Source: a virus
Virus record (IMG/VR): IMGVR_UViG_3300011258_001298
Location: 1 to 37,239 of that record
DNA: 37,239 bases
Direction: 5' to 3' (one strand)
Shown here: one piece after another, positions 21,309 to 35,708 of the stretch
Layout: every line of letters starts with the position of its first letter
Numbering within the stretch: position 1 is the stretch's first letter
Position numbers and translations under genes: made by a program
Notes under the pieces: model-generated
Told to the model about the DNA's origin: nothing
The model's database searches: none
Seen by the model: only the letters and a program-made list of their open reading frames with translations

Positions 21309-21521
21309 CGGGTCACTGTTTCACCCTTCGTTTCCGTTATGTCTCTGTGACTGAAGCCGCTTAAGCCGCTGGTTTGGCGCGCAATCGACAGGATTCAAAA
21401 TCCCCCGCCTTTGCGGGTGTGTGGGTTCGAATCCCACCTTGGGCACCATGAAAACAAAGACTTAGGCGATGCGGCCGCAATGTGACCTACGTCTGGTCAC
21501 ACACACTGGTCACAGAGTCAC
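21306..21521. other. attP region with candidate integrase arm sites
   Basis: A 209-nt non-coding stretch (21309-21517) between late genes and the DHH gene. It holds a tRNA 3' fragment (core) and copies of the hexamer RGTCAC on both sides: 21312-21317, 21348-21353 (inverted), 21482-21487 (inverted), 21495-21500, 21508-21513 and 21516-21521. The flanks also share a longer phrase (GTCACTGTTTCACCC near 21313 and GTCACTGTTCACCC near 21517). Repeats flanking a tRNA-derived core next to an integrase gene are the usual form of attP arm-type sites. Confidence 0.65.
21391..21448 (+). other. tRNA-Leu(CAA) 3' fragment, predicted attP core
   Basis: From the anticodon loop to CCA the sequence folds as the 3' part of a tRNA: loop TTCAAAA with anticodon CAA at 21396-21398, a long variable arm (CCGC CTTT GCGG), T arm GTGGG-TTCGAAT-CCCAC (21421-21437), acceptor strand CTTGGGC and ACCA to 21448. 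The 5' half is absent: no GCCCAAG acceptor strand is found upstream, and anticodon-stem pairing breaks left of 21391. This is the signature of an attP that restores the host tRNA gene after integration. Confidence 0.8.
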
Positions 21522-22432
21522 TGTTCACCCCCTGTTCGTTCCCCATCCCATCCGTGCGGCATCAGGAAACCTGCTGCGTTGCGATGCCCGCCACCTCCGT
21601 AGTTTGCCGCAACCTCTGATACGTCGATGCCGTCACCTCTGGAGCGAAGGCTGAAAGCGCGCCCCTTTGGCCCGTCAACGTAGGTTGCCGCGAATGGTGC
21701 AGCCTGGGCCATGGTGCCAGCTGCATCTGATGCGAGAGCATACGGCGCGGATGCCACCGGCACCTCATGCCCCCCGATGATCATGGTGCGCCGTGACGTG
21801 TCGATCACTTGGCGCACCAGCTTGTCATGCGCGCGCAGGATTGCCTCGCCCTCTGACGCGACCCTGCCAATGTCAACATCTGCCTGCAATCGCGCGGCCA
21901 GATCGTCCCACGTGTCCCATGACATGTCGTGCGACCCGATCACCGCGTTAATTTCGCGCGACTGCGGGATCTGCCAGCGCCAGAGATCACGGTCTGCAAC
22001 CACATCGACAAGGAAGGGCCGCGCGCCGTTGCAAAAATAGTCCCATGCCATCTGCGCGCCGCTGCGATCCATGTCGAACAAGGCGCGGGGGCCGCGAGGG
22101 TCGCGCCCGTTCTCGATCTCGACGGCCAACCCGCTGATGTGGTCCGTCCATCCATTGCTGTGCGGCTTTGGTAGGCCTGCCAGATCGGCCTGAGCGGTCT
22201 TGTGATGGTCTAGGACCAGTATGGAGCGCGCTTTCTGCGACATGCGCTCAAGCACCTGCCACTTGTAGCTGAAATCGACAATCGCCACATCCGCGCCGGT
22301 CACGTCTGGCGGCTCTGAGCTGTAGCTGGCGGGGATAAATTCAACGCTCTCGCCCACCGCCCGGCGAACAGCCCATGCGGCAGTGAAGCCGTCCGCGCAA
22401 TTTGCGTGGTAAATACAGATTATTTTTGTCAT
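21518..22432 (-). CDS. DHH/DHHA1-family phosphoesterase
   Basis: 304-aa predicted phosphodiesterase. Motifs of the DHH superfamily are present: HANCADG (His9, Asp14), VDFSY (Asp53), VLDHHKT (Asp75-His76-His77), 'VADRDLW' (Asp147) and the DHHA1 substrate-binding motif GGGGHRNAAGF (279-289). Relatives degrade short RNA, pApA or cyclic dinucleotides, or are single-strand exonucleases. It lacks the extra domains of RecJ, so a small-substrate enzyme is more likely. It starts directly after the integrase stop (TGA-ATG, no gap) and ends at attP, i.e. at the prophage edge, a usual place for accessory genes. Substrate unknown; a role against nucleotide-signal defences is only inferred. Confidence 0.85.
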   Translation of the reverse strand: MTKIICIYHANCADGFTAAWAVRRAVGESVEFIPASYSSEPPDVTGADVAIVDFSYKWQVLERMSQKARSILVLDHHKTAQADLAGLPKPHSNGWTDHISGLAVEIENGRDPRGPRALFDMDRSGAQMAWDYFCNGARPFLVDVVADRDLWRWQIPQSREINAVIGSHDMSWDTWDDLAARLQADVDIGRVASEGEAILRAHDKLVRQVIDTSRRTMIIGGHEVPVASAPYALASDAAGTMAQAAPFAATYVDGPKGRAFSLRSRGDGIDVSEVAANYGGGGHRNAAGFLMPHGWDGERTGGEQ

Positions 22433-23470
22433 TCACTCTCTCCTTTGTTGCGCCGCTTTACTCAGGCGGCGGCGGCTCGCCTTGTTGCGATAATATGCGA
22501 CCATTTCGGCGCTCTGCCCGGTCACGGCCTGTATCTCTGCGTCGGACGCCCCGGCCTCGGCCAGTTCGATGATCGCCAGCTTGCGCAGTCCGTGCAGGCT
22601 GTAGGGCTTGGCCCTGTCGCCAAGGCCATCACGCCAAGCGCGAAACGCCTTTTCCACACCATCATAGCCAACCGCCTGACGGAGGGTCTTGGCGATGAAA
22701 TGCGCGCCGCGCGTCGGCAGATCGGCAACAAAGGCGCGCAGCTTGTCGGGGCAGTAGACAGACAATTCCTTGCCGCCCTTTTCGTCAATGACCACCATCC
22801 ATTCACCGTCGATCTGGTCGCGGCGCATGGCGATGGCGGCGCTGGGGCGCTGGCCTGTGTAGAGGATCAGCGTTGCCGCGATGCGCACATTCTCTGGGGC
22901 GGCATCGAGGGCCTTGACCATCCATGCGGGCCACGGCTCGTATGGGTTCGCGGGCTTGTATTTGGCCAGCCCGGCGGCGGGGTTCGGCCCCAGTGGCCAG
23001 TCCAGTTCCCGCGTGGCGAAAGACCACAGCAGGCTGACGGTCTGCGCGTAGCGCGCCGCCTTGCGCGGTGTGTCGGATAGCGTGCCGATGGCAGCACGGA
23101 CGCCCTGACGTGTCGTCTGGCGCATGTCCTTGCCGCCGTTCTTGGCCAGGATGGCATCCATTGCGCGGCGGTATTGCACCTTGGTCGATGCTGCCAGTTT
23201 GCCCTGAGTGACAGGATCTTTTCGCCAAGCCAGCACGCATTCCCGCCACGTGTATCGGCTGGGCTTTGTCTGTGCCGTGTGCTGGCCTGTTTGTGCAAGC
23301 CAGTAAAGCCGGTCCAGTTCGCGCGAATCCCCCTTCCAGTCCAGCTTGACCTCGCGGGCCTTCTGCTTGCCGCAGTCGGACCATGTGACCCGGTGATAGG
23401 GTGCCCAGGCGTTGCCTTTCCAGCGCCACACGAGGCGCGGCTTGGTGATGCGGGGCTTGGGTGGTTTCAC
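22433..23470 (-). CDS. int: Tyrosine-recombinase integrase
   Basis: 345-aa site-specific recombinase that should join attP to a host tRNA-Leu gene. The catalytic residues are visible: Arg208 (YTGQRPSA), His293 and Arg296 (HGLRK), and Tyr326 or Tyr327 (AYYRNKAS); the second catalytic His is replaced in the GQS position (about 319), as in several phage integrases. An N-terminal SAM-like core-binding part precedes it (KLAASTKVQYRRAMDAIL). It overlaps the excisionase candidate by 4 nt and lies at the end of the leftward early operon, close to attP. Confidence 0.93.
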   Translation of the reverse strand: MKPPKPRITKPRLVWRWKGNAWAPYHRVTWSDCGKQKAREVKLDWKGDSRELDRLYWLAQTGQHTAQTKPSRYTWRECVLAWRKDPVTQGKLAASTKVQYRRAMDAILAKNGGKDMRQTTRQGVRAAIGTLSDTPRKAARYAQTVSLLWSFATRELDWPLGPNPAAGLAKYKPANPYEPWPAWMVKALDAAPENVRIAATLILYTGQRPSAAIAMRRDQIDGEWMVVIDEKGGKELSVYCPDKLRAFVADLPTRGAHFIAKTLRQAVGYDGVEKAFRAWRDGLGDRAKPYSLHGLRKLAIIELAEAGASDAEIQAVTGQSAEMVAYYRNKASRRRLSKAAQQRRE

Positions 23471-31926: not shown

Positions 31927-32372
31927 CCCGCCTGAGTTTCTCATTCGCCGCGCCTGCGGTGAAGCCTGCCCCCGTTGCGCATCTGCGCCGGGGCACTTTT
32001 GGCGGCGCTGCCGCCCTCCGGATCCGGGCCGTGATGTCCGGGGTCGGTGGCCGTCTGACGCGGGGGCCGTCTGACGCGGGGGCCGGGGCGACGTTCCTCC
32101 CCGTTCCCGCATCGGTTTTCGCGTCAGGCGGCGCTTTTCCTCCCGCTGACATGCCGGGTCATGCATGTCACCTCCCTGGACTGCCCCGGCGGCGCGCTCT
32201 GCGTGCTGTCGGGGGCTTTTCCGGGTTTTTTGGGGCGACGGAATTGCGGCGCGGCTGGGTTGGCGCGCGGCAAGGTCGGGCGGTCAGACCGCCAATTTTC
32301 AGCGTTGCCCGGTCCGCTGGACCGAGAGACCGGGCGTTCATTCACAGGACGGAGGGCGTCACATGCGCGTGA
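31923..32372 (+). CDS. Hypothetical protein, doubtful
   Basis: 149-aa frame from GTG 31923 with a GTGA overlap with the preceding micro-peptide. The sequence is Ala/Gly/Arg-rich without a clear fold. A 16-bp tandem duplication (32051-32082) lies inside; as 16 is not a multiple of three, the parts before and after it could not have been in one frame before the duplication. Without one copy the frame would stop near 32150. The first ~43 residues may be the real gene and the rest fortuitous. The 300 nt up to 32362 hold no other convincing gene. Confidence 0.35.
   Translation: MTRLSFSFAAPAVKPAPVAHLRRGTFGGAAALRIRAVMSGVGGRLTRGPSDAGAGATFLPVPASVFASGGAFPPADMPGHACHLPGLPRRRALRAVGGFSGFFGATELRRGWVGARQGRAVRPPIFSVARSAGPRDRAFIHRTEGVTCA
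32051..32082. repeat. 16-bp tandem duplication
   Basis: CCGTCTGACGCGGGGG occurs twice, head to tail (32051-32066, 32067-32082). Probably a recent slip event; it changes the reading frame of the hypothetical gene. Confidence 0.8.
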
Positions 32373-33358
32373 CATTCACAGATGCGGAATTGCGCTGCCT
32401 GCACGGGCAGGGGCTGACCGATGAGCAGTTGGCGGCGCGGCTGGGGGGCGGTCTGGCCACGGTCGGCAATCGCCGCCGTGCGCTGGATCTGCCGGTCAAT
32501 GCGGGTGGTCGGCGGGCCGGGGTGGACATGGCCCGGCTGCGGGCCTTGCACGCAGAGGGGCTGCCGGATCGTGAGCTGGCCGAGGCCATGGGTGTGAGCA
32601 CATCCACGATTGCCAATCGCCGCCTGGCCGCCGGGCTGGCGTGCAACCCGGCCCGGCCCCGGTTTGACCGGGATCGGTTGCGCGCGCTGCACGCCGAGGG
32701 GCTGTTGGACCCGGATATCGCGGCGCGCATGGGGTGCTCTGTCGAGGCGGCGCGCAAGCAGCGCCGGAAGATGGGCCTGCCGGGGCATGGCCGCAGGCGG
32801 CTGTGGGATGCGGCGCGGCTGGACCGGATGCGTGCGCTGGTCGCGCAGGGCATGGGCAGTGCGGCTGTTGCGCGCGAGATGGGTCTCAAGACGGCACAGG
32901 TCCGGGACGCCATGTTTCGCCATGGGCTGGAGACGCCGCAGTCTCTGCGGCGGTATACGCGTGACATGGATGAGCGGATCGTCGCGGGGATGCGGGCGGG
33001 CGAATTGGTATCGTCGATTGCGGCGCGGCTGGGTCGGACGGAGTCATCGGTGCAGAACCGCTGGTGGCTGTTGCGCAAGCGGCTGGGGGTGGGGTCCGCA
33101 TCGCGGCCACCATCGGCGGCGGTCTGCGATGCCGTCGCGCAGGGCGGGGCCGCTGTTCCGTCCGTGTCGCGCGCCTGTGGTCGCCCCGCGCATCGGGTCG
33201 ATCTGGACAGGCTGGCGGCGCGGCACGGGGCCGGGCTGGTGCAGTCGCTGGCGGCGGTCCAGCGCGCCGGGGCCTATGGTCGGCTGACGGAGATCGCGGG
33301 GCGGTATGAAAAGCCGCTGCGCCTGGTCGAGACAATCTGGCACCAGGTGCGCGCATGA
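32363..33358 (+). CDS. Tandem multi-HTH (GcrA/homeodomain-like) protein
   Basis: 331-aa protein with five tandem units of about 45 residues, each a helix-turn-helix of GcrA/homeodomain-like style. Units begin near residues 5 (FTDAELRCLHGQGLTDEQLA), 54 (VDMARLRALHAEGLPDRELA), 101 (FDRDRLRALHAEGLLDPDIA), 148 (WDAARLDRMRALVAQGMGSA) and 201 (DMDERIVAGMRAGELVSSIA). Each ends in an Arg-rich third helix (VGNRRRALDL; IANRRLAAGL; ARKQRRKMGL). Units 1-3 are the most alike. A C-terminal helical part without clear repeats follows. It likely binds DNA at several adjacent sites as an early regulator or replication accessory. Start ATG 32363 has GGAGGG 6 nt before it. Confidence 0.75.
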   Translation: MRVTFTDAELRCLHGQGLTDEQLAARLGGGLATVGNRRRALDLPVNAGGRRAGVDMARLRALHAEGLPDRELAEAMGVSTSTIANRRLAAGLACNPARPRFDRDRLRALHAEGLLDPDIAARMGCSVEAARKQRRKMGLPGHGRRRLWDAARLDRMRALVAQGMGSAAVAREMGLKTAQVRDAMFRHGLETPQSLRRYTRDMDERIVAGMRAGELVSSIAARLGRTESSVQNRWWLLRKRLGVGSASRPPSAAVCDAVAQGGAAVPSVSRACGRPAHRVDLDRLAARHGAGLVQSLAAVQRAGAYGRLTEIAGRYEKPLRLVETIWHQVRA

Positions 33359-33603
33359 GCGCGCGCGTGGGTGCGGGTCAGACGCGGGCCGATGATGAGC
33401 GGGTGCTGCACATCCTGCACGTGCTGGAGGTGCAGGGCGCGGGTGTGGCCCGCGCGCGATTTGGCCTGACCAACAGCGCGGTGCAGGGGATGCGGCACAG
33501 GTTCCTGCGGCGGGATGCGGTCGGCGGCTGTGCCTGCGACCGGCCTGAAAACCGTGACGGCGGGATGCCAGCGGACTGGTGGCGGAGGGCTGGCACATGC
33601 TGA
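33355..33603 (+). CDS. Small HTH protein, unknown function
   Basis: 82 aa. 'DDERVLHILHVLEVQGAGVA' and 'RARFGLTNSAVQGMRHRFLR' form a GcrA-like HTH similar in type to the units of the preceding gene, so it may have come from the same repeat family. The last 25 residues look random. The start overlaps the upstream stop (ATGA), and the end overlaps the DnaA-like gene by 7 nt. Confidence 0.6.
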   Translation: MSARVGAGQTRADDERVLHILHVLEVQGAGVARARFGLTNSAVQGMRHRFLRRDAVGGCACDRPENRDGGMPADWWRRAGTC

Positions 33604-33941
33604 CCCGCGTCTGTGTGGAGGCGGCGGCGGAGGCCTTTGGCGTGCCTGTCGCGGCGATTGACGGCCCTGCGCGCCGGGCGGGGATCTGCCGCGCGCGGTT
33701 TGCGGCCATGCGCCTGGCGCGAGATCTGGGCGATCTGTCGACGCCGCAGATCGGGCGGGAGATCGGCGGGCGGGATCACACCAGCGTGTTGAACGCGCTG
33801 GCCCGGGCGGCGGCGTTGGCCGAGGCGGACCCGGATTTCGCGGTGCGTCTGTCTGCGGCACGCAGCGCCGCGCGGCGGCGGCTGGGTGTGGGGGTGGACG
33901 GCACGTTCTATCGCCACGGATCGCTGGGGGTGGCGGCATGA
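33597..33941 (+). CDS. DnaA domain IV-like protein
   Basis: 114-aa protein resembling the C-terminal DNA-binding domain of the replication initiator DnaA: 'LARDLGDLSTPQIGREIGGR' and the signature GGRDHTSVLNA (57-67) match the helix-turn-helix that reads DnaA boxes. It lacks the ATPase domain. A consensus DnaA box lies 1.8 kb downstream (35700-35708), so it may take host-type DnaA boxes for the phage or compete with host DnaA. ATG 33597 is preferred; GTG 33579 is an alternative. Confidence 0.78.
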   Translation: MLTRVCVEAAAEAFGVPVAAIDGPARRAGICRARFAAMRLARDLGDLSTPQIGREIGGRDHTSVLNALARAAALAEADPDFAVRLSAARSAARRRLGVGVDGTFYRHGSLGVAA

Positions 33942-34638: not shown

Positions 34639-34925
34639 GTGCCGCGCCTGCCCGCGCCCGGGTGGTCACGGCGGCGACCGTTCTGTCCATGCAGCGCGGC
34701 GGTCTGTGGATGGCGGGGCCTGCGATTGGCGCGCTGGCGCAGGCGCTGGAGGGACTGCCCGCGCTGTCGGCGGATGATCCGCTGCGCCCGATTGTGCCGC
34801 TGTGCCGCGATCTGATCGACGCCCGGCTGGCCGAGAGCGACCGCCGCTATGGCGGGGTGCGCGATGCGCTGGCGGCGCAGGTGCGGCTTTATTGGGAGAT
34901 GCGACTGGTGGAGGCGGCGGCATGA
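34635..34925 (+). CDS. Small helical protein, unknown function
   Basis: 96 aa, Ala-rich and helical ('AIGALAQALEGLPALSADDP', 'RDLIDARLAESDRRYGGVRD'). Starts by ATGA overlap with the nucleotidase. The frame is open upstream inside that gene, but the overlap start is the natural one. No family recognised. Confidence 0.6.
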   Translation: MSAAPARARVVTAATVLSMQRGGLWMAGPAIGALAQALEGLPALSADDPLRPIVPLCRDLIDARLAESDRRYGGVRDALAAQVRLYWEMRLVEAAA

Positions 34926-35557
34926 GCGTGCAGGCCCTGCGGTCGGTGGATGTGGCCTCGCTGGAGGATTATCCAGAGGCGCTCAGCGATCCGTCGCTGT
35001 CGAGCGATTATTTCACCAAGTTCTGGCACGACCGCTGGCTGTCGTCGCGGCTGCATCTCAAGGGCAGTCTGGCGGTTCAGGGCGCGGCGTTGAACCTGTT
35101 TTTCCTCGCGCGCAAGCAGACCCCGGTCGGGTCGCTGCCGATTGAGCAGGATCTGCTGGCCAGTCTGTTGCGGGTCTCGGATGTGCAATGGGGCGAGCTG
35201 ATGCGGGAATCTATCACGCCACTGCACGGCTGGACGCCCTACGCCTATGAGGGCGAGGTGGTGCTGGGCCATCGTGTCGTGATCGAGGTGGCCGTTGATG
35301 CGATGGAGCGCCGCGAGGCGCGCAAGCTGTCCAGCGAGGAAAAGGCGGTCACGCAGCGCCGGATGCGGCTGGTGGGCACCATGCGCGCGGTCGGTCTTGG
35401 CCCTGCCGCCTGTGCGGACAAGGCATTGGTCGCCTGGCTGGATGAGTGGCTGCTGACGCATCACCACGGCCAGAGGCGGTCACCGCAGATCGAAACCTCT
35501 GTCACGCGCGGGATTTCGGCGGCGGCTGCTGCGGGCAAGTTCAACGCGGGGCGCTGA
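34922..35557 (+). CDS. Replication protein with DUF1376-like N-terminus (putative initiator)
   Basis: 211 aa. The N-terminal phrase 'FTKFWHDRWLSSRLHLKGSL' with 'AVQGAALNLFFLARKQTPVG', 'SLPIEQDLLASLLRVSDVQW' is close to the DUF1376/winged-helix N-terminal domain of phage replication proteins. The C-terminus is helical and basic (LSSEEKAVTQRRMRLVGTMR). It lies directly before the phased motif array and DnaA box, as initiator genes often lie beside their origin. Direct evidence of DNA binding is not visible. Confidence 0.7.
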   Translation: MSVQALRSVDVASLEDYPEALSDPSLSSDYFTKFWHDRWLSSRLHLKGSLAVQGAALNLFFLARKQTPVGSLPIEQDLLASLLRVSDVQWGELMRESITPLHGWTPYAYEGEVVLGHRVVIEVAVDAMERREARKLSSEEKAVTQRRMRLVGTMRAVGLGPAACADKALVAWLDEWLLTHHHGQRRSPQIETSVTRGISAAAAAGKFNAGR

Positions 35558-35588: not shown

Positions 35589-35655
35589 AGAACAGTTTGG
35601 AACAGTTCCGCACAGAAAAGAACTGTTCTGCCTAGAGAAGAACAGAACAGAACAT
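35589..35655. other. Phased GAAC-motif array, candidate replication origin or operator
   Basis: The motif GAACAG or its dyad form GAACnGTTC begins at 35590, 35600, 35620 and 35640, with further copies at 35645 and 35650 (last GAACAT). The spacings of 10, 20 and 20 bp place them on one face of the helix. GAACAGTTC (35600-35608) and GAACTGTTC (35620-35628) are near-perfect palindromes. The stretch is AT-richer than the genome. It suits iterons bound by a replication protein, or repressor operators. Confidence 0.65.
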
Positions 35656-35699
35656 AGAAGATCAGACACACGGAACGCCACAGATGCAGCGGTGGTGAG

Positions 35700-35708
35700 T
35701 GTGGATAA
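35700..35708 (-). other. Consensus DnaA box
   Basis: TGTGGATAA, i.e. TTATCCACA on the minus strand, equals the bacterial DnaA-box consensus. It is 45 nt from the phased GAAC array and is in a non-coding gap. Confidence 0.65.

Follow-up and report, generated by a model that had tools for sequence, protein, structure and literature searches.

What is the role of a phage early protein that carries helix-turn-helix (HTH) units in tandem, and how did such an array arise? We addressed this question in a 37,239-nucleotide stretch of viral DNA, called the window hereafter (IMG/VR record IMGVR_UViG_3300011258_001298, positions 1 to 37,239). The record is that of a temperate siphophage: it encodes terminase, portal, head, tail and lysis functions, and its integrase gene (22433-23470, minus strand) is adjoined by a gene of the DHH phosphoesterase family (21518-22432, minus strand; PHROG 4771, E 5e-96). 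The terminase is matched at 100% once, by a short contig; its remaining relatives, of which many are long viral contigs, are at most 81% identical. The phage is one of Rhodobacterales bacteria, and the closest relatives of the array come from Mameliella. The array gene sits in the early (lysogeny/replication) operon, between Xre-type regulators and replication genes, a position common to the window and the Mameliella prophages. Both this position and the HTH anatomy described below agree with the initial reading of the sequence as a tandem, predicted DNA-binding array in a phage early operon.

The array gene (32363-33358, plus strand, as are all its features given below) starts with ATG, remains open to 33355, ends with TGA at 33358 and encodes 331 amino acids. 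By sequence, a Shine-Dalgarno motif, GGAGGG, precedes the ATG at 32351-32356. The frame is intact in the window, and its codon-position GC content of 0.76/0.57/0.82 resembles that of a real gene. An alternative upstream start at 32165, which would give 397 amino acids, was rejected because the added part has neither a coding signal nor a match in relatives. Self-comparison of the protein (BLOSUM62, 40 amino acids) showed that segments recur within it at intervals of 47-50 residues. Units 1-3 scored 81, 86 and 78 at offsets of 47, 49 and 96 residues, and unit 4 scored 46-54 against units 2-3, the highest score among 30 shuffles being 38. The ungapped self-comparison score of unit 5 does not exceed the shuffles; position profiles pair this unit with the third unit of the relatives. 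When a profile was made from every unit, those of the window among them, it found all five, with domain E values from 1e-19 to 9e-14, and Pfam HTH_23 ("homeodomain-like") matched the protein in three stretches (E 2e-14).

AlphaFold2, run with 4 sequences, predicted three helices in each of the five units, with pLDDT of about 80-90 in the units. Unit 1 spans residues 5-46 (32375-32500; helices 7-14, 20-27 and 31-41), unit 2 residues 53-95 (32519-32647; helices 56-64, 69-76 and 80-90), unit 3 residues 100-142 (32660-32788; helices 103-111, 116-123 and 127-136), unit 4 residues 147-191 (32801-32935; helices 150-161, 166-173 and 177-186) and unit 5 residues 193-242 (32939-33088; helices 193-211, 216-223 and 227-241). 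They are followed by a disordered linker (residues 243-279, 33089-33199; pLDDT below 50 at residues 245-278) and a sixth HTH at residues 281-330. This C-terminal, Myb/SANT-like HTH (33200-33355; helices 281-288, 290-297, 304-314 and 319-330) ends with ETIWHQVRA. The pTM of the protein is 0.30, and thus the placing of the units relative to each other is not predicted. The sequence-only reading had proposed five HTH units in a 331-residue protein, each with an Arg-rich recognition helix, and had suggested structure prediction and a repeat-aware profile search as checks. Both checks recovered the five units, in the predicted structure each as a trihelical HTH, but the total had missed the sixth, C-terminal HTH. 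The Arg-rich recognition helix holds for units 1-3 (NRRR, NRRL and QRRK), while unit 4 is less so.

To place the array among its relatives, the records of 37 related phages were searched. This search gave relatives with three units at 37-39% identity, with 250 amino acids in L092 and 242, from its likely start, in L091, and others are encoded by Mameliella sp. MMSF_3455 and another genome of the same genus. These relatives, from prophages of Mameliella as well as from related viral contigs, have the same C-terminal domain; the Mameliella-type proteins are those of L091/L098, L092/L096, L099 and L109. Peptides of the array protein itself yielded no direct relatives in IMG/VR and GTDB contigs, and 50,697 phage records contained a single weak match (27% identity, 37% covered). 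A family-wide profile search, which scored seven candidates per genome and so gives a lower bound, had hits in at least 2 of 397 genomes; in one of these the hit is a many-HTH protein of another kind.

A tree of the units was too poorly resolved (2 of 18 inner branches well supported), and position profiles, built separately from unit 1, unit 2 and unit 3 of the relatives (P1, P2 and P3), were used in its place. In a leave-one-out check these profiles assigned the right position in 12 of 12 cases. Window units 1, 2 and 3 all scored best with P1, with 30.3 bits (8.7 with P2 and 5.8 with P3), 38.8 bits (13.1 and 15.3 for the other positions) and 45.3 bits (11.1 and 16.2), respectively. Unit 4 scored best with P2 (37.8 bits vs 8.9 and 20.7) and unit 5 with P3 (25.0 bits vs 4.7 and 7.7). 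Residues 97-331 of the window protein align with the entire three-unit protein of the relatives, unit 3 being the positional orthologue of their unit 1. By these profiles the window architecture reads P1-P1-P1-P2-P3-C. Since units 1-3 all match unit 1 of the relatives, unit 4 their unit 2 and unit 5 their unit 3, the array grew from a three-module ancestor by triplication of the first unit, which yielded P1-P1-P1-P2-P3 followed by the Myb/SANT-like C-terminal HTH. The three P1 copies share 59-60% DNA identity, so the duplication is neither recent nor an assembly product but dates far back, and the copies now differ in their recognition helices. The RR in helix 3 is invariant between window unit 3 and unit 1 of the relatives and is kept in window units 1-2. 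Anatomy, orthology, unit triplication and operon position are thus given by the sequence or by prediction. Growth by unit duplication had also been put forward in the sequence-only reading, and the unit counts it asked for in related phages bear this out, with three units in the Mameliella-type relatives.

The same reading had taken the one-unit gene directly downstream as a further sign of duplication, which we could not uphold. This gene (33355-33603, plus strand) encodes a separate protein of 82 amino acids with C-terminal NRDGGMPxxWW, predicted by AlphaFold2 to fold as one HTH (helices 11-26, 29-36 and 40-51). Its counterparts directly beside the three-unit arrays of the relatives are 54-59% identical to it, the gene is also present in phages that yielded no array, and it matches the array-unit profile weakly (E 0.012). 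By sequence it is an independent conserved family; its origin as a spun-off array unit was therefore rejected, and the gene is no evidence for array growth. The array is followed by this NRDGGMP gene in the early operon of the window, L092, L093, L106 and L109, and by a different ORF in L091.

The C-terminal HTH, judged by its sequence, marks a wider protein family whose tail ends W-H-x-[VL]-R (TIWHQVRA in the window). A profile of this domain found it alone, in proteins of 84 and 69 amino acids, in Rhodobacterales loci, and also at the end of ParB-like proteins or after one, two or five HTH units. The searches scored 7 or 17 candidates per genome, and the prevalence figures are lower bounds. 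Together with the three-unit relatives, WHx[VL]R tails thus occur with 0, 1, 2, 3 or 5 units, and the same early region of related phages carries the domain with 0 or 1 unit. These proteins of Rhodobacterales phages and prophages share the C-terminal HTH, the preceding HTH units and the place in the operon. They differ in unit number, and in the window protein P1 is triplicated. The short stand-alone proteins had no Pfam match, and our literature searches returned neither a paper on, nor a published name for, this family, which is apparently undescribed so far.

Several other proteins were encountered in these searches. A second five-unit HTH protein with a WHxR tail is encoded in another Rhodobacterales genome, G187 (L116; L161:4597-6327, minus strand), and ParB-N-like proteins of about 360 amino acids with the same C-terminal domain in L112 and L113. 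In the Rhodobacteraceae genome G142, an ORF of 1088 amino acids (L162:1240-4506, plus strand) has about ten tandem HTH units, counted as ten matches, two of them weak, within the 842-residue part that was scanned. The early region of another phage (G037; L156:2608-4401, minus strand) encodes four differing W-T-P-E-R-D (SANT/GcrA-like) HTH repeats; this protein has no WHxR tail and is possibly an independent array. Another type of three-repeat HTH-like protein is present in the early operons of two related phages (L151:2671-3468, plus strand; L095:2526-3080, minus strand).

Next, we compared the array with known DNA binders. At E≤0.001 the fold matched 33 predicted viral structures, of which many are uncharacterised, so tandem-HTH proteins look like a recurrent phage class. 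This, and the precedent of archaeal Cbp1, revises the view that such an array is unusual in a phage. In the PDB no fold match reached E≤0.001; the better fits were the NarL HTH, with a probability of 0.99 (rmsd 1.2 Å over 43 columns), and, with a probability of 0.82, the CRISPR-repeat-binding protein 2lvs. In Cbp1, three duplicated HTHs are placed 5′ to 3′ along one CRISPR repeat (PMC10883916). The window protein resembles Cbp1 and Cbp2, which have three and two HTHs, in having several HTHs from domain duplication joined by short linkers. The archaeal proteins, however, bind CRISPR repeats, with their units aligned on one DNA site, and the window protein scores 15.8 bits with the Cbp1 family profile NF040595, far below its cut-off of 140. 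The units had also been called GcrA-like; this did not hold, as the protein scored 13.3 bits with GcrA (PF07750) against a cut-off of 26.9. GcrA and the GcrA homologue of phage phiCbK (PMC3556154) share with the array the homeodomain-like HTH and the occurrence in alphaproteobacteria and their phages, but have a single HTH. The array is an expanded, six-HTH form of already known tandem-HTH DNA binders, namely archaeal Cbp1/Cbp2 and T5 D5.

The explanation that we favour, because of the early operon position, the HTH anatomy and the Cbp1 precedent, is that the six HTHs form a double-stranded DNA-binding array, a regulator encoded in the early operon that reads one extended site; we give it a roughly even chance. 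We infer DNA binding, sequence specificity and a regulatory role. The array would act as a transcriptional or nucleoprotein regulator along a single extended site, with each unit reading its own short subsite, and the three P1 units, with their shared RR in the recognition helix, might read similar subsites. The five plus one predicted HTH folds, the fold matches to multi-HTH or HTH DNA binders, the orthologous unit positions and the kept RR argue for such a regulator, as do the recognition helices of units 1 and 3, which are kept between two Mameliella prophages in 12 of 13 and 13 of 16 residues (8 of 13 in unit 2). Against it stand the pTM of 0.30, which leaves the arrangement of the units unpredicted, and the best functional profile match, which is PHROG 323, "D5-like" (E 1e-23), and not a classical operator-bound regulator. 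Coating of double-stranded DNA is ascribed to T5 D5. The array protein could likewise be an abundant early protein that binds phage double-stranded DNA largely irrespective of sequence, so as to package or shield it and to switch the replication and transcription programmes. This coating role is the main rival, though we hold it to be unlikely. T5 D5 (AAS77164, 255 amino acids) is likewise an early phage protein with tandem HTH-like units, about four of them, seen as four weak HTH-unit matches at a spacing of about 60 amino acids; its GenBank note says that it binds DNA and is required for replication and for late transcription. D5 of Vibrio phage X1 (T5-type) is among the viral fold matches, and D5 is one of the major virion-associated proteins of the T5-like phage phiR2-01 by mass spectrometry (PMC8624392). 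Fast-evolving recognition helices would also fit weak specificity. However, the PHROG match is spread across separate, generic HTH segments, homology to T5 D5 over its whole length was not found (BLASTP 24.6 bits over 37 amino acids; hhalign probability 9%, 37 columns), D5 belongs to the virulent T5 family and has no WHxR tail, and the positional identity of the units is kept across phages beyond what a non-specific coat needs. The array protein may therefore work in a D5-like way without being a D5.

The fast evolution bears on the favoured regulator as well as on further explanations. Between the two Mameliella prophages L098 and L099 the array gene has an overall dN/dS of 0.57, with 0.41 in the C-terminal domain and 0.70 in unit 2, although the numbers per unit are small. 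Recognition helices also differ between the window and its relatives, and together these results do not indicate a fixed common target, a point against the favoured regulator. An anti-repressor, anti-defence or host-takeover protein that occupies host or phage sites and blocks other proteins would fit the early operon position, and variable unit number and fast evolution would suit an arms race; the chances of this proposal are slim. That the array with five units is decaying, or neutral and with no added function, is very improbable: the close relative L093 has an array frame split by a frameshift, and dN/dS is fairly high, but the window frame is intact, and hydrophobic core, fold confidence and codon signature are preserved in each of its five units. 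The array could also help the phage initiator to act at the origin. An element at 35590-35708, in the same operon and 2.2 kb downstream of the array, is likely the phage replication origin; it is flanked by the DUF1376-like gene (34922-35557) and a gene whose ATG is at about 35741. It consists of eight 10-bp repeats, GAACAGNNNN (GAACAG iterons, 35590-35669), with 38 lag-10 matches (mean of 2000 shuffles 22, maximum 35), and a DnaA box, TGTGGATAA (35700-35708), the sole perfect one in the window. The operon also encodes a short protein resembling DnaA domain IV alone (33579-33941; Bac_DnaA_C, E 7e-16), which was not seen in the Mameliella relatives. The units could follow a repeat of one helical turn. 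The element is conserved in L093 and L106, and comparable repeats are present in L149, L152, L153 and L156. Yet L091 and L092, with another replication gene type, have a three-unit array and lack the element, and the DUF1376-like gene, together with comparable repeats, is present in several phages that yielded no array. The iterons go with the initiator type and not with the array; hence they are not favoured as its target, and a replication accessory role is rather improbable.

No binding site for the array protein was identified, which weighs against the favoured regulator. For a regulator on an extended site, the post-hoc candidate is a 16-bp tandem repeat, CGGGGGCCGTCTGACG, of 2.6 copies (two full copies and a partial third) at 32045-32085 on the plus strand. 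Its TRF score of 75 exceeds that of every other tandem repeat in the window; the top score in 40 shuffles was 59. It lies upstream, in the leader of the array gene, which has no clear coding signal and is probably non-coding. The motif is not enriched elsewhere, and the upstream regions of the relatives do not share it, which also counts against the favoured regulator. More speculatively, phages might tune the length of the site they read by gaining or losing whole HTH units, in a TALE-like manner, with the P1 units matching three repeats of a composite site, possibly 32045-32085, and unit number co-evolving with operator repeats; we regard this as a fairly remote prospect.

To our knowledge, few natural proteins string many HTHs along DNA, and we know of a unit-by-unit dissection for Cbp1 only. 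Proteins with 0-5 units before a fixed C-terminal module, among which a triplication can be traced, make up a ready comparative series, in which one can ask if an added HTH makes the site longer, makes binding tighter or contributes affinity alone. The WHx[VL]R arrays also suggest a simple set of parts for designed binders of long DNA sites. The array described here is a natural example of a phage lengthening a putative DNA reader.
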